From Hydrogenimonas thermophila (GTDB taxonomy: Bacteria; Campylobacterota; Campylobacteria; Campylobacterales; Hydrogenimonadaceae): a stretch of 64,000 bases of DNA. Positions 25,246 through 43,821 of the stretch are shown in pieces; positions within the stretch are counted from its first letter, which is position 1; each line of letters starts with the position of its first letter. Below the pieces are notes generated by a model. It had not been told where the DNA came from. It saw only the letters and a list, made by a program, of their open reading frames with translations, and did not search any database. The stretch covers positions 62,001 to 126,000 of the forward strand of contig NZ_FOXB01000001.1 in the NCBI RefSeq assembly GCF_900115615.1, given 5' to 3'. The translations under genes were made by a program, and so were the position numbers.

Positions 25246-25272
25246 TTATAAAATAGTAATTTAAGGTTTGTA

Positions 25273-26643
25273 ATGTTTAAAAACGGTTTCACTAAATTTA
25301 ATGACAAAATTGAAACCATAATTAAATCTGCAAAAGAGTCTATGAATGACTTATCAATACCAATACGAACGAAAAAAATTGCAATTACAGGCCTTAGCAG
25401 ATCAGGAAAAACAATATTTATAACGTCTCTCATTGAGCAACTGCTTCATCAGAAAAAAATTGACTTTGTAACATCAAAGCATAATACTTTTAAAGTTAGT
25501 TTATTGCCTCCAAAACCTTCTGTTAAACGTTTTGACTACTACACATTTAGTAAAGATATTAAAATAAATCATAAATGGCCAGATGGTACTGATAGTATTA
25601 GTTCAATTACTTTAGAGTTTGAAAGTAAAAGCAGTTTCCCTATGCAGGGCAATTCAAAATTCAGAATAGAGCTTATAGATTATCCAGGAGAGTGGATTTT
25701 AGACCTTGCTTTATTGCAGATGAGTTTTGATGAGTGGTCTAAAAAGGTTATTGATTGGCTAAAAAGTATAGATGAAGAGTTGGCAATAGACTATTTAAAA
25801 GAGATAGAAGAGTTAACAGATAAAAGCTTTGGCAAAGAGATAGAAGAGAAGATACACTTTAAATATGCAAATATGATCATGTTTTTCAAAAAAAAGAGTT
25901 ATTCAAATCTTACACCTGGAAGATTTTTAATGCCAGCAGACTTGGCTGATGATCCTCTACTTATATTCGCACCTATTTATAAATCAAATTCTCCTTTATA
26001 TCATGCCTTTAAAGAGAGGTATGAAACTTATTTGAATGATGTTGTCAAAGATATACAGCTTGAGTATTTCAAAGGGTTTGACAGGCAGATAGTTTTAATA
26101 GATGTTGTCAAAGCTCTTCAAAATGGACCTAAATGTTATGAAGATATGAAAACAGGTCTTAGAAGTATGTTATCTATTTATGAACATAAAGATAAAAACT
26201 TCATTTTGCAATGGTTTACTCCTTCCATTAAAAAAGTTACATTTGTTGCTACTAAAGCAGACTTGGTTGCATCATCTCAGCACAATAACTACCTCTCTTT
26301 ACTCAATGAAATGGTTGAAGGTATTAGAAAAGATTTAGATATTAATCATATCAAGACAGATACATTTGTAGTTGCATCAGTAAAAAGTACTCAAACTGTA
26401 ATGGGAAAGTATAATGGTAAAACACTATCTTGTGTGAGAGGAATTGATGCAAAGGAGAATAGGCTGGTTGAAATATATCCAGGTGAAATGCCATCATCCT
26501 TTCCTTCTCCTGATCAGTGGGATACAGAAAATTATGCTTATGAAGAGTTTTTACCTCCAAAAAAATCATATAAAGATGATGAGCCCTTTGATCATATAAA
26601 TATGGATCGCGTTATTGAATCGATTATAGGGGATCTGTTATGA
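25273..26643 (+). CDS. ycjX: YcjX-like P-loop protein (DUF463)
   Basis: The 456-residue protein has a Walker A GLSRSGKT at 40-47, LIDYPGEWILDLALL as the switch region, ATKADLVASS as the base-recognition-like motif, and CVRGIDAKENRLVEIYPGEMP near the C-terminus, all features of the YcjX family. YcjX is stress-linked in enterobacteria and its biochemistry is poorly defined. It overlaps the YcjF-like gene by 4 bp, the usual partner, which strengthens the call. Confidence 0.88.
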   Translation: MFKNGFTKFNDKIETIIKSAKESMNDLSIPIRTKKIAITGLSRSGKTIFITSLIEQLLHQKKIDFVTSKHNTFKVSLLPPKPSVKRFDYYTFSKDIKINHKWPDGTDSISSITLEFESKSSFPMQGNSKFRIELIDYPGEWILDLALLQMSFDEWSKKVIDWLKSIDEELAIDYLKEIEELTDKSFGKEIEEKIHFKYANMIMFFKKKSYSNLTPGRFLMPADLADDPLLIFAPIYKSNSPLYHAFKERYETYLNDVVKDIQLEYFKGFDRQIVLIDVVKALQNGPKCYEDMKTGLRSMLSIYEHKDKNFILQWFTPSIKKVTFVATKADLVASSQHNNYLSLLNEMVEGIRKDLDINHIKTDTFVVASVKSTQTVMGKYNGKTLSCVRGIDAKENRLVEIYPGEMPSSFPSPDQWDTENYAYEEFLPPKKSYKDDEPFDHINMDRVIESIIGDLL

Positions 26644-27692
26644 CAACAAAACCTTTTAAAAAGGTTGTAGAAAATGATATTGCAAAGAGTGAAAAAAAAG
26701 AGAGTATAAAGCCATTTAAAAAAGAGGTATCAGATGAATTTACATTTGAAGAATCTGCATCTTACGACTTTGAGAGTATTGACAAAAGTGAGATAAAAGT
26801 CTCATTTATAAAAAAATCTATCAAATTTTTCAGTGGATTAAGTGGTATTTTTACAGCTTTGGCTTTCTTTATAATAATTGCGATAATTGCAGATACAATT
26901 CAAACAGTTAACAATATCATAACTTCCGGTACTTTTGCAGAGTATATATATTTGGGAGGTTTACTCTTTTTATTGCTGGTTCTTTTTTTTAATATATTTT
27001 CTTTTATTAAACAGTTAAAACAGCTAAAAAGTTCTCAACGTATCAAAGAGGAGTTTAAATCTCAAAAGAGTAAACCAACAGAAAAGATAGTTACATTAGC
27101 CAATATACTGTTTGAACACTATAAAAACAGTTCTGATAAAGATTTGCTATGTAAGATAGATGAAGTTAAAAATAAGATAAACGACTCTGTAGTTTATGAA
27201 GATATTTATAATGAGTTGGATAATTCAGTACTTTCTGTTTTAGATAAAAAAGCCAAACAAAAGATACATAATGCTTCTGTTCAAGTAGCTCTTTCTACAG
27301 CTATATCTCCTGTGCCTTTAGTAGATATGGTGCTGATAGTATGGAGAAGTACTATGCTAACAAAGGATATTGCTGCTATTTACGGGTACAAGCCTGGAGC
27401 TTTTACAACAATTTTTCTTCTAAAGCAGGGGGCTATGAATGCACTTTTTGCAGGAGTTACTGAACTTGCAACAGACCTTTTAAGTGATGTAACAAGCTCT
27501 TCATTTATATCAAAAATTTCATATTCGGCAGGTCAGGGCATAGCAAATGGAATATTGATGGCAAGACTTGGGTATGGAGTTATGGAAGCTTGTCGTCCAA
27601 TAAGTTCAAAAGATAAGAGGAAAAGTTTTTTTAAAACGATTGTCGCATCTATAGTTGAGTCATTTAATTTTTCAGAGCAAAAGGATAAGTAA
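26640..27692 (+). CDS. ycjF: YcjF-like membrane protein (DUF697)
   Basis: A 350-residue protein with a charged N-terminal tail of about 65 residues, two membrane segments at about 69-88 and 103-124, and a C-terminal DUF697 domain (VALSTAISPVPLVDMVLIVW, IAAIYGYKPGAFTTIFLLKQ). It is coupled by a 4-bp overlap to the YcjX-like protein. Its role is unknown; pairing suggests a membrane anchor or partner for the P-loop protein. Confidence 0.85.
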   Translation: MTTKPFKKVVENDIAKSEKKESIKPFKKEVSDEFTFEESASYDFESIDKSEIKVSFIKKSIKFFSGLSGIFTALAFFIIIAIIADTIQTVNNIITSGTFAEYIYLGGLLFLLLVLFFNIFSFIKQLKQLKSSQRIKEEFKSQKSKPTEKIVTLANILFEHYKNSSDKDLLCKIDEVKNKINDSVVYEDIYNELDNSVLSVLDKKAKQKIHNASVQVALSTAISPVPLVDMVLIVWRSTMLTKDIAAIYGYKPGAFTTIFLLKQGAMNALFAGVTELATDLLSDVTSSSFISKISYSAGQGIANGILMARLGYGVMEACRPISSKDKRKSFFKTIVASIVESFNFSEQKDK

Positions 27693-27698
27693 ATATTT

Positions 27699-28529
27699 TT
27701 AAGAACCAAGATGGCTTTCTAGCAGTTGTTTAAGTTCATAATCTTTTTGATCTTTTGCAATTTTCAAATATTTACCATCATGAAAATCAGCTTCACCACC
27801 TGCACTTAACAGCATATCTAAAATGTCAAGTTTTCTTTTCTTTATTGCCCAAATTAGAAGTTCATAATTGTTTGCGTTAGGGTTGGCACCTCTTCTTAAT
27901 AGTTCATATGCAAGTTCAGTATGACCATTTTTTAGTGCTTTTCTAAGAGCATACTCTTCATCGGCATGATAGTTAGAGCCTCTTTTTATCAAAAAATTGA
28001 CAATTTCACTATGTCCATTTTCAGCCGCATATCTTAGAGCAGCATCTTTACCTGTTCTGATATCAAGCCCCTCTTTGTAAAGATATTTAACAATATCAAA
28101 ATGTCCCTCTTTTGCTGCCAGAGCAATAGCAAGGTCAAATCGTGCATGTATATTTGCACCTTTGCTCTTTAAATATGCAACTACATCTAAATGACCATTT
28201 CTTGCTGCCCAAATAAATGCATCATCTTTTAATGCATGTATATCTGCTTTTTTTTGTAAAAAAAACTTAACCAAATCTAAGTATCCACATCCGGCACTGT
28301 ATCGGAAGTAAAAGTCATCAAATAGATGAAGATCAATACTGCTGTTGTCTGACAAAATTTTCAATGCTTCCAAATTTCGGCTATCTGTTATCCAGAACAT
28401 AGTTTTAAATTGATGCTCTATTTTAATATCTTTAGCATTGTTTTGTAGAATTTTTAAAACTTTTTCATTGTTATTTTCTAAACAGGCTTTGTATAACTCC
28501 TCCTCTATTTTTTCTATCTTTTTGTCCAA
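27699..28529 (-). CDS. Ankyrin-repeat protein
   Basis: The 276-residue protein has no signal peptide or membrane segment and is made of about six to seven ankyrin repeats, seen as repeated units like AARNGHLDVVAYLKSKGANI and AAKEGHFDIVKYLYKEGLDI. Ankyrin stacks bind proteins; no enzymatic domain is attached. It converges on ycjF with a six-base gap and is divergent from the coiled-coil gene at 28573. The partner is unknown. Confidence 0.88.
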   Translation of the reverse strand: MDKKIEKIEEELYKACLENNNEKVLKILQNNAKDIKIEHQFKTMFWITDSRNLEALKILSDNSSIDLHLFDDFYFRYSAGCGYLDLVKFFLQKKADIHALKDDAFIWAARNGHLDVVAYLKSKGANIHARFDLAIALAAKEGHFDIVKYLYKEGLDIRTGKDAALRYAAENGHSEIVNFLIKRGSNYHADEEYALRKALKNGHTELAYELLRRGANPNANNYELLIWAIKKRKLDILDMLLSAGGEADFHDGKYLKIAKDQKDYELKQLLESHLGS

Positions 28530-28572
28530 AAAATCTCCTTTTTTGTTATAATTTTATAACAAGAGGGTTAAT

Positions 28573-29451
28573 ATGGATATTAAAGAGATAGAGAAATTAA
28601 AAAACAGTCTTATTCCTGATATAAATAAGTTTTTAGAATCTATAGTTAAAGAGTTATTGAATTCAAAAGTAAAAAATGACACTTTAAGTCCGCTTTTGCT
28701 TACCCATAAAGAGTTTGTAGATCTTTCACTATCTAGAATTATAAAAAAAATTAAAGAAAAAATATTTCTTCTGGCAAAACAGAAAGGAATGCCGGTTGGA
28801 GATAAAATTTTTGAGGTTAAACTTGAATATCTAAGTGCTTATATCTTTAAATATGATATGAAGCACGATAATGTCATTTACAATAGAATTGCAAAATATA
28901 TTATAAATTTAATCAAAAAAGATCCACAATCTCTTAACCAGTTTGTTTCAACATTACGTAGAGATGTTTATGCCGGTAAATATGGAAAATTTCGCTACCC
29001 AGAACTGTACCCTTTTGATAAAAACAGATATTCATCACCTATACCTGAATTAAAAAAAATTTTAACACATGTAGACTCTATTAAAAAGCAGTTAAAACAT
29101 AAAGAGAGTGAATTAAATAAGGTTACTAAAGAGTTGGATGCAGCTAAAGAGACACTTTCACAATTAGAGTTTGCAATAGAAGATACAAAAGAAATAGTTG
29201 TCAATCTCAAGAAAAAATATAAAGAGGTTGAATTAAATAACCGTATGTCTATGGTAAAAAATCAATATAAATATTTTGGTTTATTAACAGAGAATTTAAA
29301 GAAGAAGATTGAAAAATATGAAAAAGAGAAAAACTTTTTAATGAAAAGTATTAATGGCTTTAAAGAAAAAAACAAAGAGTTACTAAATAAAGAGGAAGAG
29401 ATTATAAATACAATCTCTTCTAATTTGAAGAAGCATAAAGTAAAACTGTAA
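28573..29451 (+). CDS. Unknown protein with long C-terminal coiled coil
   Basis: I do not recognise this 292-residue protein. The first 160 residues are mainly helical and include DKNRYSSPIPEL near the end; residues about 160-290 form a charged coiled coil (KQLKHKESELNKVTKELDAA). It lacks a signal peptide and membrane segments. It converges with the CheX-like gene one base later and is divergent from the ankyrin gene. Codon use is AT-rich, as in the chemosensory operon. Position alone does not link it to chemotaxis. Confidence 0.7.
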   Translation: MDIKEIEKLKNSLIPDINKFLESIVKELLNSKVKNDTLSPLLLTHKEFVDLSLSRIIKKIKEKIFLLAKQKGMPVGDKIFEVKLEYLSAYIFKYDMKHDNVIYNRIAKYIINLIKKDPQSLNQFVSTLRRDVYAGKYGKFRYPELYPFDKNRYSSPIPELKKILTHVDSIKKQLKHKESELNKVTKELDAAKETLSQLEFAIEDTKEIVVNLKKKYKEVELNNRMSMVKNQYKYFGLLTENLKKKIEKYEKEKNFLMKSINGFKEKNKELLNKEEEIINTISSNLKKHKVKL

Positions 29452-29452
29452 A

Positions 29453-29839
29453 CTATTGTTTTTGAATTGAGACAGCTATTTCTAATATTGAGTTTTTAAA
29501 AAAGAGGCCATTTTTAACTTTACATTTATCGCATAATATAGGTAAAGATAATTCATACCCTTTATTTAATTTAGTTTGAATATTTCCTGCAATTATATTT
29601 AGCATCTCTTTTATTAAATCAATTTTCATATCTTCATTTACTATTCCAAATAATTTTTTTGACATTTTTGTTAAAGATTCATCTGAAACTCTTAATACAA
29701 GAAAAAAGTTTTTTGCCCCACTCAATAAAATTTTTACACATTTGCATTTTTCAAATTCAATTTTCTCGACTATCTCTATATCTTCTGAAAAATAGATGTC
29801 AGAATACTCTTTAACACTTAAAATTATGATATCTTTCAT
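29453..29839 (-). CDS. cheX: CheX-like CheY-P phosphatase
   Basis: A 128-residue single-domain protein with EMLNIIAGNIQTKLNKGYEL, containing the E-x2-N pair that positions water in the CheC/CheX/FliY phosphatases, followed by LSLPIL as in CheX. It would remove phosphate from a receiver domain and end signalling. It is the last gene of the chemosensory operon, overlapping cheW by 4 bp; no cheZ is seen here. The family call is by motif. Confidence 0.75.
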   Translation of the reverse strand: MKDIIILSVKEYSDIYFSEDIEIVEKIEFEKCKCVKILLSGAKNFFLVLRVSDESLTKMSKKLFGIVNEDMKIDLIKEMLNIIAGNIQTKLNKGYELSLPILCDKCKVKNGLFFKNSILEIAVSIQKQ

Positions 29840-30270
29840 TGTAACTCTTCTATACTAAGTAAAATGTCTATATTTAACAGAGTTACCATCTCATTTGAGT
29901 CTATCTGCACTAAACCTTGAATATACTTGCTATCCATTCCTATTGAAATATCTGGAGTATTCATTATATTTTCGTTTGTTATTTCAGCAATTTTTTGAAT
30001 ATTGTCAACTACAATACCTATGATTTTATTTTCATTTGTTTTGATGACAATTACAACAGTATTTTCATCATATGTAGCTTTATTTGCAAAACGTTTTCTT
30101 AGATCAACAACAGCTATAACTTCACCTCTAAGATTTGTTACGCCTATTATCCACTCTTTTTCATTGTATAGAGGTGTAATTATAAGTCCTGAATAAACTA
30201 ATATACCTTTAATTCTATTAAGCTCTATTCCATATGTAGAGTTTAATAGATTAAATACCATTATTTCCAT
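29836..30270 (-). CDS. cheW: CheW coupling protein
   Basis: CheW links receptors to CheA. This 144-residue protein is a single CheW domain: MVFNLLNSTYGIELNRIKGI, ITPLYNEKEWIIGVTNLRGEVIAVVDLR is the core at about 36-65, and VVDNIQKIAEI follows. A TTG reading extends 11 codons upstream into cheA, but the ATG at 30270 has AGAAGG six bases before it and aligns with the family start. It overlaps cheA by 20 bp and cheX by 4 bp. Confidence 0.92.
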   Translation of the reverse strand: MEIMVFNLLNSTYGIELNRIKGILVYSGLIITPLYNEKEWIIGVTNLRGEVIAVVDLRKRFANKATYDENTVVIVIKTNENKIIGIVVDNIQKIAEITNENIMNTPDISIGMDSKYIQGLVQIDSNEMVTLLNIDILLSIEELQ

Positions 30271-32548
30271 TAGAAACCTTCTGTTTTTTACTCTCTTCAA
30301 CAATATTGGCTATATCAAGAATCAATCCTACGCTACCATCACCTCTTATTGTTGAAGCACTTATTCCTTTAACTTTTCTGAAGTTCTTTTCTAAAGATTT
30401 AACAACAATTTGTTCTTGTGTCATAAATTCATCAACAAAAATAGCTACTTTACTTGTTTCAATTTTTGAAATTATCACTATTCCTTTTGTTAAATCATAA
30501 TATTTTGGTTCAATTCCAAAAAATTTATGAAGTCTGATAACTGGTATAAACTCATCTCTGACGATTAGGATCTCTTCACCATCATTTACAACATTTTTAA
30601 TGATCTCTTTAATTGGTTGAAAAGATTCAAGAACCATATTTAAAGGGTATATAAATTTATGATCACCTACTTTTACATTTAATCCATCTAATATTGCTAA
30701 TGTTAATGGAAGTATGATTACAAATTTTGTTCCTATACCTTCTTTTGTATAGACTTTTATGGTGCCACCAATAGAGTTGATATTGTTCATAACAACATCC
30801 ATTCCAACACCTCTACCGCTGATATCGGTTACTTTACTAGCAGTAGAAAGACCTGGAGAGAAGATAAGCATAGCTATATCTTCATGACTCATTCTTTCAA
30901 GTTCATCTTGTGTTATAATATTTTTTTCTACAGCTTTTGCTCCTATTTTAGCTGTATTTATGCCAGCACCATCATCTTCTATGGTAATAATGATCTGTCC
31001 GCTTTCTTGTGCAGCAGAAATTGTTATTTTACCTTCTTTAGGTTTTTTTGCCTTAATTCTTTCCTCAACTGTTTCAATACCATGATCCAAGGCATTTCGT
31101 AAAATATGTGTTAGAGGATCCATTAATGACTCAACCATTAGTTTATCAATTTCAACAGTATCTCCATAATGTTCAAATTTGACATTTTTACCAAGCTTCT
31201 TTGACAAATCTCTTATGACTTTAGGTAATTTTGAATATACTGAGCTCATTGGAATCATCCGTACGCCCATTACAGACTCTTGTAACTCTCTAATATTTCT
31301 ATCAAGGACTTCCAATCGTTCTGTGATCAAATTTTTAATTGAATAATCTTCCAAAGCTTCTGCAAATTGAAATAGCATACTCTTTGTAATTACTAAGTCA
31401 CCGACTTTATTCATCAATATATCTATTTTATCAAGACTTACTCTTATGGAGTTACTAGAGACAATATTTTTTAAAGTTACTTTTTTGTTTTCATTACTTT
31501 TTTTATCTTTTTTAGGTTTATCTAGATTATCTTTTTTTATACTTTGTTGCTCTTCCTTTTGAGCTTTTTCTATAGAATCATTTGAAGATTGATGCTTGAT
31601 TGCGTTATTTATTTTTGTCTCATCAAAAATTTCAAAGCCTAAATTATTTTTTGAATCTTCATCAAATATCTCAAAACCTTGATCAGTTGAAGTTGAAATA
31701 GTCTCATCAAATAACTCAAAGCCAACATCATCAGATTGTTTTAGTTTTGAAATTTCTTTTTTTATATCTATAAGGATATGTTCAATTTCATGTTTATTAT
31801 TATTTAGCTCTTCGTCTATAAGTGCTTCTGCTATTTTTATAGCTTTTTTAAAAAATTTATTGGTTTTAGCATTATATTTATAAAAGCCATCTCTTATTTT
31901 ATCTAGATACTCTTCTAGTTCATGTATATACTTTGGAAAAAACTTAAATCCTATAAACTGAGAGCTAGCCTTTAGTGTATGAATTTCTCTAAAAAGTTCG
32001 CTAATTTCTTCTTTGCTTAAACTGCCAACAGTGTTAAAATCATTTAGTCTTTTATTTATTTTTTCAAAAAGATCAACAATCTCTCCTCCATTCATTTCAA
32101 TCAATTTTTTTTGATTTGTATCGTACTTATCTCTATTTTTGGTAGCTAAATCATTAGTCGTTTTTTTTGTAAAGCTATCTATCTGTTTTTTGAATTGATT
32201 ATATTTCTCTTCAAATTCATCATCGTCTAAGTTGTCAGAAAACTCTTTTTGAAGTATGTTGTTTAGTTCATCACTGCCATCTATAAGAAACTCAATAATT
32301 TCTGGTGTAGCTTCAAATGCACCATTTCTGATCATATCCATCAAAGATTCAAAAAGATGGACAATTTTTGAAAACTTTTCAAATCCAACAGAGCCACTAC
32401 CTCCTTTAAGAGTATGAATATCTCTAAATAGAGTATCCATCTCTTCTTTACTTAAGGAGCCATTCTCTTCAGCTTCTAATAATAGAGAGTTGATATTTTC
32501 AAAAAGTTCTTCACTCTCTTCTATGAAAGCTTCTTTGATTTCATCCAT
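30251..32548 (-). CDS. cheA: Chemotaxis histidine kinase CheA with two Hpt domains and a triplicated GFE(I/L)FDE linker motif
   Basis: The 765-residue kinase has two Hpt domains, with His45 in DIHTLKGGSGS and His190 in EIHTLKASSQ, then a linker holding GFELFDE (276-282), GFEIFDE (291-297) and GFEIFDE (304-310). The P3 dimerisation helices, the P4 ATPase (LRNALDHGIE, DISGRGVGMDVV) and the CheW-like P5 follow. There is no typical P2 and no C-terminal receiver, unlike CheAY of many Campylobacterota. The ATG at 32548 shares its A with the MCP stop, and a TTG one codon earlier is less likely. It belongs to a separate chemosensory operon without cheR or cheB. Confidence 0.93.
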   Translation of the reverse strand: MDEIKEAFIEESEELFENINSLLLEAEENGSLSKEEMDTLFRDIHTLKGGSGSVGFEKFSKIVHLFESLMDMIRNGAFEATPEIIEFLIDGSDELNNILQKEFSDNLDDDEFEEKYNQFKKQIDSFTKKTTNDLATKNRDKYDTNQKKLIEMNGGEIVDLFEKINKRLNDFNTVGSLSKEEISELFREIHTLKASSQFIGFKFFPKYIHELEEYLDKIRDGFYKYNAKTNKFFKKAIKIAEALIDEELNNNKHEIEHILIDIKKEISKLKQSDDVGFELFDETISTSTDQGFEIFDEDSKNNLGFEIFDETKINNAIKHQSSNDSIEKAQKEEQQSIKKDNLDKPKKDKKSNENKKVTLKNIVSSNSIRVSLDKIDILMNKVGDLVITKSMLFQFAEALEDYSIKNLITERLEVLDRNIRELQESVMGVRMIPMSSVYSKLPKVIRDLSKKLGKNVKFEHYGDTVEIDKLMVESLMDPLTHILRNALDHGIETVEERIKAKKPKEGKITISAAQESGQIIITIEDDGAGINTAKIGAKAVEKNIITQDELERMSHEDIAMLIFSPGLSTASKVTDISGRGVGMDVVMNNINSIGGTIKVYTKEGIGTKFVIILPLTLAILDGLNVKVGDHKFIYPLNMVLESFQPIKEIIKNVVNDGEEILIVRDEFIPVIRLHKFFGIEPKYYDLTKGIVIISKIETSKVAIFVDEFMTQEQIVVKSLEKNFRKVKGISASTIRGDGSVGLILDIANIVEESKKQKVSNGNNGI

Positions 32549-34266
32549 CAATTATCACTTACAAATTTTTTATTTTTAACTTGTTCATACAGTTCATTTG
32601 AAATTTTTGAAAGGTCATATGTTACAACATAAGTATTTTGCATAATAACTTTATTCTGATTAGTCATTTCATCTATATCTTTAATAAGTTTATTGATTGA
32701 TTCAATCTTTTTCATCTCTCCATCTGCCTCATTTGCAACTGAATTGACTAACCCAAGTGTATTTGAAACATTTTTTACAACTGACAAAAAGTTCTCTTTC
32801 ATATTTTCTGAAATTTCAATACCTTCAGTTGATTTGACTTGTGTTTTGGAGACAAGCTCTTTAATCTTTTTAGCAGCTTCTGCACTCTTATTTGCAAGGT
32901 TTCTAACTTCTTGAGCAACAACTGCAAATCCTTTTCCAGCTTCTCCTGCTGTTGCCGCTTCAACTGCAGCATTTAGTGATAAGATATTTGTTTGGAATGC
33001 AATAGAGTCAATAACACTAATTGCTTCACTTATGTCATTTGTAGAAGAGTAGATTTCTTGCATTGCATTAAGAGTATTTTCTGCCAGTTTTTGACCCTTT
33101 TGGGCAGAGTCTGAAGTTTTATTTGCTACCTCTTTCATTTGATTTGTTTTATGCACTGTTGATTCTATTGCTTGCATAATGTCATCTATCTGATTTGTAG
33201 CAATATCAATATTTTTATTTGTTTGAGACAATGTTTTTGAAAGCTCATCAATATTTTCTGTCAGTTTATTAGATGTCTCTTGTAATACTTCACTTTTTTC
33301 TGCTAAAGATTTGGCAATAAGTTGTGCTGAATTGCTAAGAGAATCACCAAGTTTATTGACGCCATCTATTAGTACCTCTATTTCACCTTTTGCTTTTAAA
33401 GAGACTCTAGGTGTGTAATCTTCTTGTTTATAATTTTCTAGTACAGATAAAATAGTAGAGTATAGTTTTTGTATCTCATCTAAAAATGTGTTAAGACTTT
33501 TCTTAAGTTCAGCTATTTCTGGGTTGGCAGGGTTTGAATGTATTCTGTATGAGAAGTCTCCTTCTGACATTGAATGAACTACATTTCTTATCTCTTCTAC
33601 ACACTCTTTATCTTTTTGTAAATCTTTTTCAATTTTTTCAATATTTTTATTAATTATGTCAGCAATGACTTCAAACTCATCATTTGAGTTTATATTTAAT
33701 TTTGTAGGATTAGATATATTTCTATTTAAGTATTCAAAAAATGTAACAAGACCGTTTTGTAAAATATCAATATTATTTATTATTCTTTTTGCAAATATAT
33801 AGAGAGCTAAATTGATAATTATGTTTATAATTAAAATGATTATAAACATAATAATATTCTCTTTTGTAATATCCAGATTGTCTGAGATTTTCAAATCAGA
33901 TTTAATTTTAGCTATAGAAGATTTTAAATATTGATCTAGTTTTGTTGGTAATGTAGTGTTTTGATCTTGTTTTTCAAAATTTGGAAGATAACTTAATATT
34001 CTGCTTCTATATGGTTCTCCTAATGTGTTTAGATATTTTCTAATTTTATCAATATGTATTTTATTCTTATCATTTTTGTATTGCAAGAATTCTATATAGA
34101 TATTTTGTAAAATAACCTCTTTTTGATATATCTCATGATTTTTCTCAATACTCTCTTTAGTCATAGATATTCTGTAACCAATTGTTATTTGCAATATTAT
34201 AAATGCAATGAAAATCCCCACTCCCAACCAACTGTTTTTTGTTCTAATGCTGACAATTTTTTTCAT
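32548..34266 (-). CDS. Methyl-accepting chemotaxis protein
   Basis: A 572-residue transmembrane receptor with membrane segments at about 12-31 and 137-159, a short periplasmic domain of about 105 mostly helical residues, a HAMP-like region, and the cytoplasmic signalling tip [32 protein letters not shown] (highly conserved core). The short periplasmic part fits a four-helix bundle rather than Cache. No C-terminal CheR-docking pentapeptide is seen. As the only receptor in the operon, it is probably the dedicated input. The ligand is unknown. Confidence 0.92.
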
Positions 34267-34285
34267 ATTTTTCCTTTTATTTTTT

Positions 34286-35221
34286 TTATTGTTCTAAATA
34301 CTGTTTTATATATTTATAAAGGGTTTTTATATCTGCCTTATTTATAAGAGCAATTGCTCCAAGACTTAATACTTTGTCATTAACACCAATGTTTGTCATA
34401 CTGGTTAATGAAAGTACCGGTAAATCTTTATAAACTGGATTTTCTTTGATATATTTAATAACCTGATAACCATTCTTTACAGGCATTTCTATATCTGTAA
34501 CAATAAGTCCTATTTCACTCGGTAACATAGTTTCTAATCTATCTATAAGTAGTTGCCCATTTTCAAAAATCTCATATTTTATGCCAATAGAAGAAAAAAG
34601 TTCATTCAATTTATCAATAACTGTAGTTGAATCTTCTGCAACAAGAAGGTATTTATCTGAGTGAATAGGTGGTAATTTAGCCATTGTTCCAATATCGTAA
34701 ATAGTTGTTCCTTTCTCTTTTGCAACATTAATATCTGATAAAAGTTTTTCAGCATCAAATATAATGCAGGTTTTATTAACTCCATCATCAGTTTCAATTT
34801 CTGTTACATAAGATATTTTTGGGTCATTTCCGCTTGGAAGTTTTAGGTCACTACTGTTTTTCTCTTCAATTTTTATGATATCTTTTACTAGGATTCCTAT
34901 TTTTCTTTCATTATAGTTACAAACTATGATAATTTTATATACATCTTCATCAATATCATTATCTCCAATCCATCTGTCAAGATTTACAATTGTTATGTAT
35001 TCGCCACGAAGATTAATAACACCGTTTACTAATCCATTAGCAGAAGGAGTTTTAGTAATTTCTATACTTTCTTTAATAAGAAATGTCTGAATTTTAGAGA
35101 TATTGATAGCATAAATTTTATTGCCACCTGTATGAAATATTGCCAACTGCATAACATTTCTAAGATAGCTTTTTGTAATGTAGTCAACATTTTTTTGTAT
35201 ATAATTTTCATTATTGAACAT
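34286..35221 (-). CDS. cheV: CheV coupling protein (CheW plus receiver)
   Basis: The 311-residue protein joins a CheW domain (about 25-165; [16 protein letters not shown]) to a receiver domain (about 190-310; [40 protein letters not shown] with the conserved lysine). CheV tunes receptor coupling according to its phosphorylation and may be a phosphate sink. It overlaps the propeller-REC gene by 11 bp upstream, and the MCP follows 19 bp later. Confidence 0.92.
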
Positions 35222-36449
35222 TTTTCTCTTCTCTTACTATCTCAATCATTTTTTGTGCAAGAGGTACTACACTTTCAGGTTTAAAAGGTTTAACTAAATA
35301 TCCTTTTACGCCTTTGCTTACCATTTCTCTAACTTTTTCTCTTGCACCTTCAGTTGTTGCCATTATAATTTTTATATGGTTATAGATCGGATTTTCTCTA
35401 ATTTTATCAACTGTTTCAGAACCATTAAGATTTGGCATATTCCAATCCATAAAAATAATATCAATTTCAGGATTTTTTTTCAAAACATCTAAACACTTAA
35501 CACCATCTTCTGCTTCATAAACTTCTACATCTTCAAAATTGTTTAAAATGGAGTTTTTGATTATCAGTCTCATTGTTGAACTGTCATCAACAGTTAAGAA
35601 TTTTACTTTAAATGTATCTTCCTCAGGCTCTTCCTTTACAGGAATAAGATCATTAATAGTGTATTTGACAATATTATAGTCTGTATCAACCGCTATTAAC
35701 TCATCATTTTGTGAATCAAATATAATGGGTTTAATATCTTCATCAATTACAAAATTTTCTGATGTATCAATATTTAGTGCCTGAAAACCATTTTCATATT
35801 GCATTATTAACAAGCCATTTTCATACTTCATTTTATTAATACAGAAATCTAAATATATGGTATCTGTAACTCTACTGTTTTTTAGATCATAAATTTTAAG
35901 TTCATTGTTTTGATTGGCTATAAAACATAAATCGTTTGCTATTGTAAAAGAGGTTATGTTAGCAGTGTCATTATATTTAAATTCAATTTTTTTCTCTATG
36001 ATATTAATGCCCTTAATAAGATTTTTACTTTGTGCAATGACTATATAATCAGTGTAAAAAGATATATTTTCAATTTTTGTTTTAAATATATTCAAGTTTA
36101 TTAAATTTTTTCCGCCAATAATACTATGAATTGCAATTGCACCACTGTTTTTACCTACTCCTATTAGAACAGAAGAGAGTGTAACACAGCTAATATTGTC
36201 CAATAAAAATTTTGTTAAAAGTATGTCATCTTTAAAGTTAATTACTTTTACATTTTCTCCAACTGTAACAATTTTATTTTCATGAATAGATTGATATTTT
36301 GAAACATTTGCAATAGTATATTTTGGAGATAACGTATTTTTATCTATTATTTTTATACTTTTATCTGTAAATATAAGTATATTGTCATCAGCATACATAA
36401 TATTGGTTACTTTATTGCCATATTTTATTAACTTTTTTGTTGCTGGCAT
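35211..36449 (-). CDS. Propeller-like domain fused to a CheY-type receiver, first gene of the chemosensory operon
   Basis: Residues 1-270 of this 412-residue protein are repeated four-strand-like units with WD40/YVTN flavour (for example NILIFTDKSIKIIDKNTL, NELKIYDLKNSRVTDTIYL), with no signal peptide, suggesting a cytoplasmic beta-propeller. After an acidic linker (EEPEEDTF) comes a full receiver domain: Asp288/Asp289, phospho-acceptor Asp335 in FMDWNMPNLNG, Thr365 and Lys387. All catalytic residues are intact. Propeller sensors normally precede kinases, not lone CheY domains, so this is an odd output. It leads the operon and overlaps cheV by 11 bp. The propeller call is by pattern only. Confidence 0.75.
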   Translation of the reverse strand: MPATKKLIKYGNKVTNIMYADDNILIFTDKSIKIIDKNTLSPKYTIANVSKYQSIHENKIVTVGENVKVINFKDDILLTKFLLDNISCVTLSSVLIGVGKNSGAIAIHSIIGGKNLINLNIFKTKIENISFYTDYIVIAQSKNLIKGINIIEKKIEFKYNDTANITSFTIANDLCFIANQNNELKIYDLKNSRVTDTIYLDFCINKMKYENGLLIMQYENGFQALNIDTSENFVIDEDIKPIIFDSQNDELIAVDTDYNIVKYTINDLIPVKEEPEEDTFKVKFLTVDDSSTMRLIIKNSILNNFEDVEVYEAEDGVKCLDVLKKNPEIDIIFMDWNMPNLNGSETVDKIRENPIYNHIKIIMATTEGAREKVREMVSKGVKGYLVKPFKPESVVPLAQKMIEIVREEKNVQ

Positions 36450-36463
36450 TTAAAATCCTTTTA

Positions 36464-36481
36464 TTTACACATATCTGTAAA
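36464..36481. promoter_or_regulatory. Inverted repeat ahead of the chemosensory operon
   Basis: TTTACA-N6-TGTAAA lies 15 bases upstream of the propeller-REC start, next to its AAAGGA ribosome-binding site. The 6-bp arms and position suit an operator or an initiation-region hairpin. The 36450-36727 interval holds this, the downstream hairpin of the phosphate transporter, and no gene that I can see. Confidence 0.35.
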
Positions 36482-36676
36482 CAAATTCTTTAGTTATATA
36501 AAGGAAACTATTTTAACATTTAAAAATAAAAAACTCCTTCACTTTATATTAATAAAAATAAAAAATTTAGAAAATTAGGACGATTTCAGTTTTTTTAGCA
36601 GATAGCAGAATATAGTTATAAAAGATATTGATTAGTTTAGAATAGTTTTTATGCGGTTTTAAAGAGTTTAGGCTTA

Positions 36677-36707
36677 CTTCTGTATTCTTAAATATAGAAT
36701 ACAGAAG
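36677..36707 (-). terminator. Hairpin downstream of the PiT transporter
   Basis: CTTCTGTATTC at 36677-36687 and GAATACAGAAG at 36697-36707 form a perfect 11-bp stem with a 9-base loop, 21 bases past the transporter stop. There is no clear T-run on the minus strand, so efficient intrinsic termination is uncertain. Confidence 0.5.
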
Positions 36708-36727
36708 CAATAAAGTTTCTAACAGTT

Positions 36728-38311
36728 TTAGAGCATTACTCCCTTAATTACAAAAAATATGATTGCTGAAAGCACAGCTGCAGCTGGAACAGTTATGATC
36801 CAAGCTGCAACTATCTTTTTGACAGCATTTCTTTGTACATATTTAGTTTTATAAACATTTTTAAGAGCTTTGTTCTCTTTTTTAATACGTTTTTCATACT
36901 CATTTATTACTTCAAACAAATATACTATTCGCTCATAATCTGCTTGTGTCTTTGTATCTTTTGATTCAATAGTTTTAAGTTCATCTTGGAATGCTACAAG
37001 TTTAGACTTTAACTCTTCAAGTTTCTCTTTTTCCTCTTTAATGCGATATTCCAGTCGTTGTGTGCGGTCTAGCCATTCACGCAAGAATCCAACACCAAAA
37101 ACACCCCCAAGTGCAATATGGGTTGAGCTGACAGGAAGACCAAGCTGAGAAGCAATAATAACAGTAATAGCAGCAGCTAATGCAATAGAAAATGCTCTGA
37201 TTTGATCAAGCTCGGTTATCTCACTACCTACTGTTTTAATTAGCTTAGGACCATATAGTGCAAGTCCAAGAGAGATGCCTACAGCACCAATGATCATAAC
37301 CCAAAGAGGTATAGCAGCTTTTGTAGAAACTGTAGCGTGAGTTAAAGCATCATATATACCTGCAAGAGGTCCAACGGCATTTGCAACATCATTTGCTCCA
37401 TGTGCAAAACTAAGAAGAGCTGCTGCAAAAATGAGTGGAATAGTAAAAAGTCGATTTACACTTGATCGCTCATTATCTAGTGAATCTGCATATTTGGTAA
37501 TTGTTGCTTTTACAAGGAAAAATATTATTATTGCACCAATAAAGCCTAAACCTGCCGCTGTTGGGAATCCAAGCTTGACTACATGCTTAATACCTTTTAA
37601 AATAACATAAGTTATAAATGCCCATCCCATTACAGCAACATAAAGCGGAACCAATTTCATTGCTGCTTCTTTAGTATTCTCTTTGTATATAATAGTCTTT
37701 TTAATTGCATACAAAAAAGCAGCAGCGATTAAACCACCTAAAATTGGAGATATTACCCAGCTTGCTGCAATTTTACCCATAGTTCCCCACGCAACTATGC
37801 CAAATGTTCCCGCTGCAGCAATACCTCCACCCATAACACCGCCAACAATAGAGTGAGTGGTTGAAACAGGAGCTTTAAGGTATGTAGCAAGATTAAGCCA
37901 CAGTGCTGCAGCCAATAGTGCTGCTGTCATAGCCCATACAAAATGATCAGGATGGGCAAATGCCATAGGATCTATGATCCCCTTTTTAATTGTACCTGTA
38001 ACATCACCACCTGCAATAAGGGCTCCTGCAGATTCAAATATAGCTGCAATAATGATAGCCCCCATCATTGTCAACGCTTTAGAACCAACTGCTGGTCCAA
38101 CATTGTTTGCAACATCATTTGCACCAATATTCATTGCCATATACGCACCAAACAGTGCCGCAACTGCAAGGAATGGGTTTCCTGGAATTTTATCCCAAGT
38201 GGCCAGTAAAACTATGACCATAAAAATTAGGGAGAACCCAAGACGTAAGAAGTCGGTTTGACTCTTCTTTACAGCCTTTTTCTGCATCTTCTCGAAAGTA
38301 TTTATCTCCAT
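36728..38311 (-). CDS. pit: Inorganic phosphate transporter, PiT family
   Basis: PiT proteins carry metal-phosphate by proton symport across the inner membrane as the low-affinity route. The 527-residue protein has the two inverted PiT signature repeats, GANDVANNVGPAVG and GANDVANAVGPLAG, about 12 hydrophobic segments and a charged coiled-coil loop at about 415-490. It is divergent from the acyltransferase gene pair; the interval carries two 11-bp-period repeats resembling Pho boxes. Together with the Pst system downstream it gives this locus both low- and high-affinity phosphate uptake. Confidence 0.93.
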   Translation of the reverse strand: MEINTFEKMQKKAVKKSQTDFLRLGFSLIFMVIVLLATWDKIPGNPFLAVAALFGAYMAMNIGANDVANNVGPAVGSKALTMMGAIIIAAIFESAGALIAGGDVTGTIKKGIIDPMAFAHPDHFVWAMTAALLAAALWLNLATYLKAPVSTTHSIVGGVMGGGIAAAGTFGIVAWGTMGKIAASWVISPILGGLIAAAFLYAIKKTIIYKENTKEAAMKLVPLYVAVMGWAFITYVILKGIKHVVKLGFPTAAGLGFIGAIIIFFLVKATITKYADSLDNERSSVNRLFTIPLIFAAALLSFAHGANDVANAVGPLAGIYDALTHATVSTKAAIPLWVMIIGAVGISLGLALYGPKLIKTVGSEITELDQIRAFSIALAAAITVIIASQLGLPVSSTHIALGGVFGVGFLREWLDRTQRLEYRIKEEKEKLEELKSKLVAFQDELKTIESKDTKTQADYERIVYLFEVINEYEKRIKKENKALKNVYKTKYVQRNAVKKIVAAWIITVPAAAVLSAIIFFVIKGVML

Positions 38312-38333
38312 ATAACAGCGCCTTAGTATAAAG

Positions 38334-38350
38334 ATTACAAAATGGTAACA
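38334..38350 (-). promoter_or_regulatory. Pho-box-like direct repeat facing the PiT gene
   Basis: On the minus strand TGTTAC-N5-TGTAAT shows the same 11-base period as the boxes at pstS, pstC and phoU. It is only 23 bases from the PiT start and the nearest -10-like TATACT is three bases away, so the geometry does not match the other boxes. It may be weak, repressive or accidental. Confidence 0.45.
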
Positions 38351-38387
38351 AAGGATAGATTAAAATCTGCAAAGAAATTGTAAATCT

Positions 38388-38404
38388 TGTAACTTATATG
38401 TAAC
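38388..38404 (+). promoter_or_regulatory. Pho-box-like direct repeat ahead of the acyltransferase operon
   Basis: TGTAAC-TTATA-TGTAAC is an exact direct repeat with an 11-base period, 81 bases before the small gene at 38485. Ten bases after it lies TGCAAT, a moderate -10 candidate. The pattern equals the boxes in front of pst and pho genes, linking lipid synthesis to phosphate limitation. Confidence 0.6.
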
Positions 38405-38484
38405 CATTTTGTATTGCAATTGCAACAAAACTATCAGATACTTTCATTGTTTAATTGCTGTAGTTCCAAAAAAGGAGTTGTGGA

Positions 38485-38673
38485 ATGGAAGAGATAGTTT
38501 TAAAACTGGTTGAGTGTCTATGTAGTAAATATGGAATATCTACTGAAGAGGCATACTCTATGATCTACAGTGAATGGGAATATGTTGAAGAGATGGTTAT
38601 ATCTGGTGCAAATGAAAAGAAGCTATGTAAAAAGATTGCAAAAAGACTTCTTGATCTGTATATGGTGGCATAA
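38485..38673 (+). CDS. Small unknown protein preceding the OlsF-like acyltransferase
   Basis: This 62-residue acidic-to-neutral protein (MEEIVLKLVECLCSKYGIST) is mainly helical, with two cysteines in the first 15 residues and a third in KKLCKKIAKRL. AAAGGAG lies well placed before the ATG. Its stop shares a base with the next start (TAATG), so it is translationally coupled to the acyltransferase. I recognise no family. It may be a small cofactor or acyl-carrier-binding partner, but this is a guess from context. Confidence 0.65.
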   Translation: MEEIVLKLVECLCSKYGISTEEAYSMIYSEWEYVEEMVISGANEKKLCKKIAKRLLDLYMVA

Positions 38674-40394
38674 TGGCTGTTCAGGTAGAAGAGTATATAT
38701 CTAAAAGTTATCCCTCATTTGTTAACTATCCAAAACCATTTCAATACAGCATTTTAAGTTTTTTTAAAAGATTTTTTCATGAAGATGAGATAAACAGCTT
38801 TTTAAAAGAGCACGCTCATAAAGATGCTTTTGGTTTTGTTGAAGCAGTACTAGATTATTTCGATACAAAAGTTGTAGTTGATAAAAAAGAGATGGCACGG
38901 ATTCCTGCTTATGGAAAAGTGGTTATTATTGCAAACCATCCTCTTGGAGCTTTGGATGCCTTGGCTCTAATATATCTTTTGCAAGATATTCGTAAAGATA
39001 TTAAAGTTCTAGCAAACGATTTTTTATACTCATTTGATAATCTCAGAGAGCTTTTGATTCCTATAGACAATATCTCAGGAAAGATGAAGAAGAGTTCAAT
39101 TAGCTCCATTTATGAAGCCTTAAACAAAGAAGAGGCGGTAATTATATTTCCATCAGGAGAGGTTAGCAGGGTTTGCCCAGATGGAATTAAAGATACAAAG
39201 TGGCAAAACGGGTTTTACAAGATAGCTAAAAAAGCAAAAGCACCCATTTTGCCAATATACATTGATGCAAAAAATTCAAAAAGTTTCTATCTTCTTTCAA
39301 TGATCAACAAAAGTATCTCTACTGCAGTTTTACCAAATGAAATGTTCAAGTTTAAAAATAAAACTATAACTTTCAAAATAGGTAAACAGATACCTTATAA
39401 AAACTACTCTATACAATCACTCGGATCTAAAGAGATAGTACGACTATTGCGAAAACATTTTTACAATGTTGCAAAAGGCAAAAAGGGCATATTCAAAAGT
39501 GTTAATGAGATTGCACTTCCTGAACCTCGCAGTGAGATAAAAAATGAGCTTAAAACAGGTATTGAGTTGGGAACAACCTTTGATGGAAAGAAGATAATTC
39601 TTTATGAAGGTACGAAGATGAATGCCCTCTTTAGAGAGATTGGTCGTCTTCGTGAAATATCATTTCGTCAGGTAGGAGAAGGGAGTGGCAGAAAACGTGA
39701 TATTGATGATTATGACTTTATATATAAACATCTCATAGTATGGGATGATGAAGAGCTGGAAATTGCAGGAGCATACCGTGTCGGAGTCTGTAAAGATATT
39801 ATAGATGTGTACGGCATGGAAGGGTTATATACATCCACTCTTTTCAATTACGATGCAAGGTTTAAACCATATTTGCAAAATGGTATAGAACTAGGTAGAA
39901 GCTTTGTTCAACCTCGATACTGGAACTCTAGAGCTTTGGACTATCTTTGGCAGGGAATTGGAGCTTACTTGCGTCAGCATCCTGATATTAGGTATCTATT
40001 TGGACCGGTAAGTCTGAGTGCAACATTTACAGAAGAAGCAAAAGCATTAATTGTATATTTCTATACTCTATATTTTGGCTCTAAAGAACCGCTAGTAAAA
40101 CATAAAGAGCCATTTAGATTAAGCAATGAAGTAAAAACTCATCTGGCTTCAATTTTTACTGGCAGTGACTACCGAAGCGATATGAGAGTATTAAAAGAGG
40201 AACTAGAGATTAGAGGATTTTCTATTCCAGTTCTTTACAAACAGTATGCTGAAGTATGCGAAGATGGTGGAATGGAGTTAATGGATTTTGGAATAGATAG
40301 GGAGTTTAACCACTGTATTGATGGTTTTATAGTTGTAGATTTAAAACGACTAAAACCATCTAAGAGAAAACGTTATATAGGAGAAACAGTATGA
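38673..40394 (+). CDS. OlsF-like bifunctional acyltransferase (PlsC-type plus GNAT-type), candidate ornithine-lipid synthase
   Basis: The 573-residue protein joins two acyltransferases. Residues about 70-270 are a lysophospholipid-acyltransferase domain with NHPLGALD at 88-95 and IFPSGEVSR. Residues about 310-490 are an OlsB-like GNAT domain (IGRLREISFRQVGEG, IELGRSFVQPRYWNSRALDYLWQGI, LFGPVSLSATF). This is the OlsF arrangement, in which one half N-acylates ornithine and the other O-acylates the product, making a phosphorus-free membrane lipid. A Pho-box-like repeat lies upstream and phosphate genes surround it, fitting lipid remodelling under phosphate limitation. The substrate is not proven by sequence. 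Confidence 0.82.
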   Translation: MAVQVEEYISKSYPSFVNYPKPFQYSILSFFKRFFHEDEINSFLKEHAHKDAFGFVEAVLDYFDTKVVVDKKEMARIPAYGKVVIIANHPLGALDALALIYLLQDIRKDIKVLANDFLYSFDNLRELLIPIDNISGKMKKSSISSIYEALNKEEAVIIFPSGEVSRVCPDGIKDTKWQNGFYKIAKKAKAPILPIYIDAKNSKSFYLLSMINKSISTAVLPNEMFKFKNKTITFKIGKQIPYKNYSIQSLGSKEIVRLLRKHFYNVAKGKKGIFKSVNEIALPEPRSEIKNELKTGIELGTTFDGKKIILYEGTKMNALFREIGRLREISFRQVGEGSGRKRDIDDYDFIYKHLIVWDDEELEIAGAYRVGVCKDIIDVYGMEGLYTSTLFNYDARFKPYLQNGIELGRSFVQPRYWNSRALDYLWQGIGAYLRQHPDIRYLFGPVSLSATFTEEAKALIVYFYTLYFGSKEPLVKHKEPFRLSNEVKTHLASIFTGSDYRSDMRVLKEELEIRGFSIPVLYKQYAEVCEDGGMELMDFGIDREFNHCIDGFIVVDLKRLKPSKRKRYIGETV

Positions 40395-40510
40395 AAAAAA
40401 GATGGAAAGCAGTGTTTAAGTCAGTTAGAAGCAGATATGGATATATTGAGAGTATGATCGTTTATCGCCACAAAAACTCTTCAGAATTTAATTATCTCTT
40501 TCAGGTTTAA
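40391..40510 (+). CDS. Small basic protein candidate coupled to the acyltransferase
   Basis: An ATG overlapping the acyltransferase stop (ATGA) opens 39 codons, MKKRWKAVFKSVRSRYGYIE onward, with Arg, Lys, Trp and Tyr prominent and no hydrophobic stretch. The overlap is the kind seen for true coupled genes. I recognise no family. Conservation of the frame in relatives would decide whether it is real. Confidence 0.45.
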   Translation: MKKRWKAVFKSVRSRYGYIESMIVYRHKNSSEFNYLFQV

Positions 40511-40621
40511 TCCTGGAAGGTTATATATTTCCCTCATATTGACATTCACAATAGTTAAAAGCTACAATATGTGTAATTTATTGCAAAAAGTAGTAAATTA
40601 TATTATTTAAAGGAGCCTTTT

Positions 40622-40822
40622 ATGGCAAAAACACTAAAGAAAAAAGCGGTAAAAAAAGTTGTTGCTAAAGCAACTAATAAAGCAGTTGCAAAAAGTATTA
40701 TTAAGAAAAAAAAGGCAGATAAACTTGCAAAAAAAGCTATAAAAGCTATTTTGAAAAAGAAACCTACAAAAATAAAAGCGGCTAAAAAAATTGCTAAGAA
40801 AGTGATTAAGAAGGCTGCATAA
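40622..40822 (+). CDS. Lysine-rich histone-H1-like small protein
   Basis: The 66-residue protein is about 42 percent lysine (28 of 66) with alanine, valine and isoleucine between, in repeated patterns such as KKAVKKVVAKA and KKIAKKVIKK. That composition resembles bacterial H1-like, nucleoid-binding tails and suggests nucleic-acid or anionic-membrane binding. AAAGGAG precedes the ATG. It stands between the acyltransferase and the psiE gene, so a phosphate-stress role is possible but only by position. Sequence simplicity means that homology calls would be weak. Confidence 0.8.
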   Translation: MAKTLKKKAVKKVVAKATNKAVAKSIIKKKKADKLAKKAIKAILKKKPTKIKAAKKIAKKVIKKAA

Positions 40823-40831
40823 TCATATCAT

Positions 40832-40860
40832 TAGGAAAGAGTTTAATTTATTCTTTCCTA
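40832..40860. terminator. Convergent-region hairpin, candidate bidirectional terminator
   Basis: TAGGAAAGA at 40832-40840 pairs with TCTTTCCTA at 40852-40860 over nine pairs with an AT-rich loop, between the lysine-rich gene and the convergent psiE gene. No long T-run follows on either strand. Confidence 0.5.
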
Positions 40861-40877
40861 TGAGTTATGCTAAATAC

Positions 40878-41237
40878 TCAATCAGTATCATTAGATGAAT
40901 TATATGTAATTTTGATTGATAGGTATCGCATAAAAAAGAGTGAAAACAAAATTAATATCAATAGTGTTAATTTTGTAGTATCGATATGCTCATGAGTAAT
41001 GGCAATCATTAATTCTCTTATTGCATAGATGATTGCAGCATCTACCATATATCTAATTTTTATACGATGTTTTTTGAAAAAAAGAAAAATCATTTGAACT
41101 ACTTCTATAATAACGATTAGTTCAAGAAGTAAAATTATTGTTTTGGTAAAGTCGCCGCCGACTATAATAAGTGTTGCAAAAATGAATACGGCGACGACAA
41201 TATCAATATATTCTCGTAATTTTGATAGTATACTCAT
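40878..41237 (-). CDS. psiE: PsiE-family phosphate-starvation-inducible membrane protein
   Basis: The 119-residue protein has about four membrane segments and the PsiE hallmark AAIIYAIRELMIAITHE following a vEvvqM-type loop. PsiE is induced by phosphate starvation in E. coli through PhoB; its function is unknown. Here it ends a pstCAB-psiE transcription unit, two bases past pstB, so both the family and the location point to phosphate stress. Confidence 0.85.
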   Translation of the reverse strand: MSILSKLREYIDIVVAVFIFATLIIVGGDFTKTIILLLELIVIIEVVQMIFLFFKKHRIKIRYMVDAAIIYAIRELMIAITHEHIDTTKLTLLILILFSLFFMRYLSIKITYNSSNDTD

Positions 41238-41239
41238 AA

Positions 41240-42025
41240 TTATCCAAACTTTCCTGTGATGTATTGCTCAGTCATCTCTTCTTTAGGTGTAATAAACAGC
41301 TCTTCTGTAACACCAAGTTCTATGAGATCACCAAGATACATAAATGCAGTATAGTCACTTACACGGGCAGCTTGCTGCATATTGTGAGTAACAATGATAA
41401 TAGTTACTCTATCTTTTAGTTTAATAATAAGCTCTTCAATAGCTTGAGTTGAGATTGGATCTAGGGCTGATGTTGGTTCATCAAAGAGTAAAACTTCTGG
41501 CTCAACTGCAATGGCTCTAGCAATGCATAGACGCTGTTGTTGCCCACCGGACAGTGCAGTACCTGAACTTTTAAGACGATCTCCAACCTCTTTCCATAGT
41601 GCTGCATCTTTTAGTGCCTGTTCAACTCTTCCATCAAGTTCACTTTTAGATTTTATGCCTTGCAGACGTAATCCGTATGCTACATTGTCATAAATGCTCA
41701 TAGGAAATGGTGTAGGCTTTTGAAAAATCATTCCTATCTGTGTACGCAGTTTAATAAGATCCTCTTTCTTATCTAAGATATTACGCCCTTTAAAGTGAAT
41801 GTCTCCTTCATATCTATTTCCAGGGTAGAGATCATGCATTCTGTTAAAGCAGCGCAGCAAGGTTGTCTTTCCGCAGCCACTTGGTCCAATTAATGCTGTA
41901 ACAGCACCTTTTCCAATTGGCATATTTATATTTTTCAAGTTAGGTTTTTCAACACCTGCGTAGTAGAAACTGAAATCTTTTACCTCAATAATATGTTCAT
42001 GTGTTACTTCACAAATTGTTGCCAT
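41240..42025 (-). CDS. pstB: Phosphate ABC transporter ATP-binding protein
   Basis: PstB energises high-affinity phosphate uptake. The 261-residue ATPase has Walker [10 protein letters not shown], the signature [17 protein letters not shown], Walker [14 protein letters not shown] and the PstB-type [20 protein letters not shown]. Its start overlaps the pstA stop by one base. All catalytic motifs are intact. Confidence 0.97.
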
Positions 42026-42873
42026 TAGCGGTTTCCTTTTTTATTTCTAATAATAATACGTCCAATAATATTTGCACCCAGAACGAATAGGGCTAAAATA
42101 AGGGCTGCTGCCCATCCTTGATTGATCCAGTCGTCATATGGACTTGTAGCGTAGTTGAACATAGTAACAGTTAGCGATGCTATCGGCTGATTTAGATCAG
42201 TCGAGAAAAAGTTATTACTAAATGATGTAAACAGTAATGGTGCAGTTTCTCCTGCAATACGTGCAACAGATAGCAATATACCTGTTAACATTCCTGTTTT
42301 TGCTCCTCTATAAACAACTTGAATAATAACTTTATATTTCGGTGCTCCCAGTGCTGCTGCTGCTTCTCTAAGACTTCCTGGGACTAACTGTAACATATCA
42401 TCTGTAGTTCTAAGAACAATCGGTACCATCATTACAGCTAAAGCTGCAATTCCTGCCCATCCACTAAAGTGTCCAATTGGCTCAACCAAAATAGCATAAA
42501 CAAATGCACCTATTACAATACTAGGTGTACTCATCATAATATCTGAAATATCTCGTATTACTCGAGCTAATTTACTCTTTTTCCCACCATACTCACTTAG
42601 GTAAGTTCCTGCTAAAACACCAATAGGAACACCTATAATAGAAGCACCTATCACTAAAATAAGCTGTCCTACAAGAGCATTTCTAAGACCGCTAGGTTCT
42701 CTTCCTGGAGGAGCCATGTCATAAGTAAATATATCTAAGCTTAAAGCATTAAAACCTTTATATAAAAGTACGCCTATAATCCAGAAAAGAAACAGCATCC
42801 CTGCTATTGCTGCAGCAGAGGAAAGAATCATAATAATTTTATTTAAAAGAATTCGTCTCTCTTGAAGTGTCAT
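42025..42873 (-). CDS. pstA: Phosphate ABC transporter permease PstA
   Basis: The 282-residue inner-membrane permease has about six membrane segments and the EAA-type coupling loop [20 protein letters not shown]. With PstC it forms the phosphate channel. It overlaps pstC by 4 bp and pstB by one base, showing tight coupling. The N-terminal half carries [19 protein letters not shown], as in PstA homologues. Confidence 0.95.
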
Positions 42874-43733: not shown

Positions 43734-43764
43734 ACTCTTTCCTTTGCTGAAAATTATGTGGTGA

Positions 43765-43797: not shown

Positions 43798-43821
43798 TTG
43801 CTTTGGTAAATGAAAGAAGGA

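Follow-up and report, generated by a model that had tools for sequence, protein, structure and literature searches.

A response regulator with a predicted WD40-like propeller and a CheY-like receiver heads a chemosensory operon in Hydrogenimonas thermophila

Two chemosensory classes described in Campylobacterota come closest to the system reported here. The flagellar F3 class (cheVAW) has the gene order cheV, cheA, cheW, and CheX occurs with it too. The F7 class has a 36H receptor, and its Arcobacter-type cluster is cheYARDB, as described by Mo et al., 2022 (PMC9321776). Both PMC9239204 and PMC9321776 point out that, for most non-flagellar Campylobacterota arrays, the output has yet to be identified. 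Among response regulators, CheY (H. pylori CheY1, E. coli CheY) is a single receiver domain that binds FliM, and proteins such as REC-GGDEF, REC-EAL, and REC-HD-GYP join a receiver (REC) to an enzymatic output module.

We analyzed a stretch of 64,000 nucleotides from Hydrogenimonas thermophila (contig NZ_FOXB01000001.1, positions 62,001 to 126,000; hereafter the window), in which a minus-strand operon of six genes runs in the order propeller-REC, cheV, mcp, cheA (with two Hpt stretches), cheW, and cheX (Table 1). The propeller-REC frame starts with ATG and overlaps that of cheV by 11 bp, which bears out the preliminary description that the gene heads a chemosensory operon and overlaps cheV; the operon runs on to cheW and cheX. 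CheX carries the catalytic motif ExxN (EMLN, residues 78–81). Neither the open reading frames nor Pfam revealed cheR, cheB, or cheD between 29453 and 36449, and promoter matches 5' of the operon were at chance level. A frameshift or misassembly as the origin of the fusion was rejected, because independent assemblies repeat the same architecture.

Table 1. Positions in the window of the propeller-REC gene, its domains, the chemosensory operon, and the surrounding island.
Feature	Position	Strand	Basis
Propeller-REC response regulator, 412 aa, operon gene 1	35211..36449	-	ORF, Pfam, AlphaFold and Foldseek, family alignment
Predicted seven-bladed WD40-like beta-propeller, residues about 14–264	35658..36410	-	AlphaFold, Foldseek
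CheY-like receiver, residues about 281–397	35259..35609	-	PF00072, H. pylori CheY match, residue table
cheV (CheW domain and receiver)	34286..35221	-	Pfam CheW 9e-23, Response_reg 2.5e-13
Methyl-accepting chemotaxis receptor with HAMP	32548..34266	-	Pfam MCPsignal 1e-38, HAMP 2e-9; Tar alignment
cheA, two Hpt stretches, no receiver domain	30251..32551	-	Pfam Hpt, H-kinase_dim, HATPase_c, CheW; tree
cheW	29836..30303	-	Pfam CheW 5.6e-26
cheX, predicted phosphatase	29453..29839	-	PF13690 3e-8, over cut-off; ExxN motif
Island of about 11.5 kb (ycjX-like, DUF697, ankyrin, coiled-coil, che operon)	25246..36730		Congener alignment; GC per gene

A propeller-like domain ahead of the receiver had been proposed from the repeats in the N-terminal part, and structure prediction agreed, with no sign of a non-propeller fold. 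The AlphaFold model, built from an eight-row family alignment (mean pLDDT 81.5), has 27 strands in residues 14–264, arranged in four-stranded blades and followed by the receiver. The middle blades had pLDDT values of 84–95, those of blade 7 and the ring closure were low (44–67), and the pTM of the whole model was only 0.54. When this model was compared with the PDB using Foldseek, the top matches were WD40 propellers (Fbw7, beta-TrCP, G-beta; E 1e-14 to 1e-16). A distant homologue (L057) was modeled with a pLDDT of 88.7, a pTM of 0.85, and 28 strands; an N-terminal strand at residues 3–9 could close its ring, and it matched LIS1, WDR61, and the prokaryotic WD40 domain of PDB 5yzv with TM scores up to 0.83 by target length. 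Across both models, the best E values for WD40 proteins were 1e-16 to 1e-17. On the basis of these models, residues about 14–264 are predicted to form a seven-bladed WD40-type propeller, and the pTM of the homologue suggests that its receiver packs on the propeller in a defined manner.

At the sequence level the signature is weak. For residues 1–275, Pfam returned several WD40 propeller models below their cut-offs, the best being PF25171 (1.6e-5, 24.9 bits against a curated 80), whereas homologues matched WD40 models far better, to 3e-14, and two of them (L021 and L036) passed the cut-off of 27 for PF23383 with 30.5 and 37.0. Compared with Fbw7, beta-TrCP, G-beta, LIS1, and the Thermomonospora WD40 protein (PDB 5yzv), the protein has the same predicted fold, with 27–28 strands in seven blades across the two models, but is only about 10–17% identical, is fused to a receiver, and is encoded in a chemosensory operon. 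A periplasmic location of the propeller was rejected, because neither a hydrophobic signal nor a membrane segment is seen at the N-terminus, and a receiver has to lie in the cytoplasm.

The receiver was matched by PF00072 at residues 285–394 (1.1e-21), and its nearest solved relative in the PDB was H. pylori CheY (1.8e-24), followed by other CheY proteins. Alignment to E. coli CheY showed that D288, D289, D335, T365, and K387 correspond to D12, D13, D57, T87, and K109, so that the receiver is complete, as had been reported, with every phosphotransfer residue present; it also carries Y384. These phosphotransfer residues are invariant in all 13 family members. Unlike the single-domain, motor-binding CheY, the protein carries about 265 residues of propeller ahead of its receiver and lacks K119. 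In a receiver tree, the fusion receivers clustered together and were joined by the long-branched F3 CheY, apart from the free CheY proteins that sister operons encode. This grouping fits a single fusion event.

Besides the window, we found the fusion directly 5' of cheV in 13 Campylobacterota loci (L042, L043, L050, L052, L040, L055–L060, L036 in genome G074, and L103 in genome G030), of which L040 is truncated by a contig end and L055–L060 come from six MAGs titled Helicobacteraceae bacterium. Distant lineages share the order propeller-REC, cheV, then MCP and CheA, their frames overlapping or abutting, and in L050 cheV leads to cheA without a receptor gene between them. The expectation that the same architecture would recur beside cheV, mcp, and cheA thus held for these loci but not throughout the related operons, some of which have CheY plus REC-EAL, or REC-HD-GYP, instead. 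Identity to the window protein across the family was 20–26% for propellers and 43–66% for receivers. In a profile survey, the full-length fusion was present in 5 of 397 high-quality Campylobacterota genomes (E 1e-110 to 1e-178), each time adjoining cheV, including in G030, which was absent from the profile; the next-best matches, with E values of 1e-48 or weaker, were confined to the receiver end. The architecture is rare, and its presence in distant families suggests that it is old. No partner gene was consistently linked to the fusion across the family loci.

Single-sequence searches with the propeller alone returned nothing from 100 relatives, nor did a scan of 84,980 species genomes yield a match; because cheV synteny then revealed the fusion, we read both results as low sensitivity. 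In a plasmid collection nothing matched over 80% of the query; the best matches there were receivers. Two further loci were seen alongside these searches. L060:8642-13033 carries propeller-REC, cheV, PAS, and MCP genes without a neighboring cheA. An open reading frame of 841 aa at G031:C1:898290-899591 (L077, L081, L083–L085) encodes a highly repetitive WD40-like protein with five overlapping propeller-profile matches at 240-base steps.

We compared the kinase and the receptor of the operon with known classes. The operon CheA proteins grouped in a single clade (100/99). Among the few reference classes in the tree, its nearest neighbor was E. coli CheA (98/95), and it stood apart from both the F3-type CheA of the genome and the third CheA, which is encoded on contig 15. 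The receptor signaling domain aligned with E. coli Tar without gaps through the hairpin and is therefore 36H-like; it ends without a C-terminal CheR-docking pentapeptide. Membership in F3 was rejected: the operon CheA has Hpt, dimer, ATPase, and CheW domains but not the receiver that defines F3, and separate F3-type parts exist in the genome, namely a CheA with a receiver and a cheY beside prmA, as well as FliM. The window operon further differs from F3 in the two Hpt stretches of its CheA, in the receptor gene inside the operon, and in a CheA only 38% identical to the F3 CheA of the genome. Kinase and receptor point to an F7-like array. We do not call it F7, because the cluster lacks the cheR, cheD, and cheB of the Arcobacter F7 operon; it is built around cheV, and the outputs in this operon family would be propeller-REC, CheY with REC-EAL, or REC-HD-GYP.

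The position upstream of cheV varies among related operons. The CheA most similar to that of the window (81% identical over 301 columns, the part available) is found in L041, where this slot holds REC-HD-GYP (927–1997), preceded by a GGDEF protein (2–853). Sister operons from another family, which lack the fusion (L045:8276-20180 and the similar L047, L049, and L051), encode a PAS protein, a soluble MCP, cheV, mcp, cheA, cheW, cheY, REC-EAL, and NIT-MCP, with the soluble receptor upstream of cheV and the free CheY, REC-EAL, and NIT receptor downstream. A GGDEF gene lies downstream in L049, the one sister locus long enough to show it. The sister operons are a large chemosensory and c-di-GMP cluster, and the gene position ahead of cheV acts like an interchangeable output slot. 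The exchange with c-di-GMP regulators suggests that propeller-REC is itself an output regulator. REC-GGDEF, REC-EAL, and REC-HD-GYP proteins likewise pair a receiver with an output module and occur in sister operons, but searches of the window protein revealed no enzymatic domain in its propeller.

The operon lies in an island with a GC content of 28%, compared with 37–41% for most nearby housekeeping genes. Besides the che operon, it carries one gene each for a ycjX-like (DUF463), a DUF697, an ankyrin, and a coiled-coil protein. In a congener (G003, L130), the two genes that border the island in the window, thiF-like and pit, are directly convergent, and CheV matches at E <= 1e-40 were absent from all 17 congeners searched. 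The simplest reading of this comparison is a horizontal gain of the island; loss in the congeners is possible and would need repeated deletions. Adjoining the island, at 36728–49101 of the window, is a phosphate-uptake block with pit, pstBAC, a porin, pstS, phoU-like, and phoB/phoR-like genes, the names being read from the sequences alone.

The reading that we favor, at somewhat better than even confidence, is that the fusion is the cognate output regulator of an additional, horizontally gained F7-like array, in which phosphorylation of the receiver by CheA alters binding by the propeller, probably to a non-motor partner, and CheX resets it. Signals at the transmembrane receptor of the operon would set the activity of CheA, coupled via CheW and CheV. 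Phosphorylated CheA would then phosphorylate D335, and the phosphorylated receiver would shift its docking on the propeller, which would open, close, or reshape a propeller surface for a protein partner; removal of the phosphate by CheX would reset the receiver. As no enzymatic domain was detected in the propeller, binding is the most likely output. The WD40-like propeller fold typically binds other proteins. The proposal made in the preliminary description, a binding platform controlled by phosphorylation, thus fits both the anatomy of the protein and the slot exchange. The retention of the phosphotransfer residues in all 13 members while the propeller drifts counts for this reading, as do the kept gene order beside cheV, the homologue model with its pTM of 0.85, the CheX with a catalytic motif in the operon, and the separate F3-type CheA with a receiver, together with FliM, in the genome. 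The low pTM of the window model and the lack of a consistently linked partner gene count against it. The partner would probably not be the flagellar switch; candidates are surface-behavior or c-di-GMP machinery and type IV pili. The genome has type II secretion/type IV pilus-family ATPases, and pili are among the possible targets, although nothing ties these ATPases specifically to the operon.

Alternatively, the fusion might act within the array, as a scaffold, an adaptor, or a sink for phosphate, tuning CheA and CheV while another regulator carries the output, which we consider unlikely. It is a constant neighbor and likely translational partner of cheV, whose product is itself a receiver-bearing adaptor, L052 has a separate free CheY near the fusion, and phosphate sinks are established among CheY paralogues in other systems, all of which would suit such a role. 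However, no single-domain CheY was seen in the operons of the window, L042, L043, L050, or the Helicobacteraceae-titled MAGs, which leaves the fusion, apart from CheV, as their sole candidate output. Rapid drift of the propeller would also be unexpected in a part of the array lattice, and the REC-HD-GYP in the slot of L041 counts against this reading too. The propeller might instead sense a ligand or protein in the cytoplasm and so gate phosphorylation of the receiver, which would make it an input rather than an output. Small-ligand binding occurs in some propellers, and rapid divergence could reflect differing ligands, but the ten aligned propeller domains have no conserved pocket residues, M1 and one glycine being their sole invariants, and the Foldseek neighbors are mostly protein-binding WD40 proteins. 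Ligand sensing, which the preliminary description had offered as a second role for the propeller, is without support, and we judge a sensor of this kind very improbable.

A flagellar role, with the receiver docking on the motor switch like CheY and the propeller serving as a brake, spacer, or localization domain, has in our estimate a low probability. It is in keeping with the receiver tree, where the fusion group is joined by the F3 CheY, albeit on a long branch, rather than by operon-type free CheY, and with the FliM encoded in the genome. The FliM-binding set given in PMC9321776 is W58, K91, K119, and the Y106–T84 coupling. W58 and Y106 are retained in the fusion receivers, so binding to the motor could still occur, but the position of K119 is Leu in the window receiver and L, V, or I in 13 of 13, whereas K119 itself is kept in the F3 CheY of the same genome; direct motor control is therefore less likely. 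K119 is missing from the free CheY proteins of this operon family too, so the fusion is not alone in having lost it. The genome also retains an F3-type CheY, and its F3 CheA is the distant one noted above.

Returning to the output-regulator reading, the family may, tentatively and with rather less than even confidence, represent a distinct chemosensory subclass, in which an array controls the assembly of complexes through a phosphorylation-gated WD40 scaffold, rather than a motor or an enzyme, and each lineage has diversified the propeller for its partners. The main texts of the Campylobacterota chemosensory surveys PMC9321776 and PMC9239204 do not mention WD40, and the systematic paper on prokaryotic WD40 proteins (PMC5587647) does not mention response regulators. 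A literature search that paired WD40 with CheY, receivers, or chemosensing returned no account of the architecture; classic surveys of response-regulator outputs lay outside this search, so an earlier mention is possible. Receivers fused to unusual outputs are already known, and the WD40-propeller-REC architecture is apparently undescribed in the searched literature. The family connects one type of array to a specific output protein that can be purified and carries its own binding domain, which allows the target to be captured directly. This array, which has its own kinase, probably controls a target other than the flagellar motor, and the exchange of propeller and c-di-GMP regulators upstream of cheV is a natural experiment in swapping chemosensory outputs.

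Elsewhere in the window, a FIST-domain histidine kinase (10802–12850, plus strand) is convergent with a receiver protein (12840–13394, minus strand), which it overlaps by 11 bp. The C-terminus of this receiver protein weakly matches HicB/ribbon-helix-helix models, an unusual output for a response regulator.
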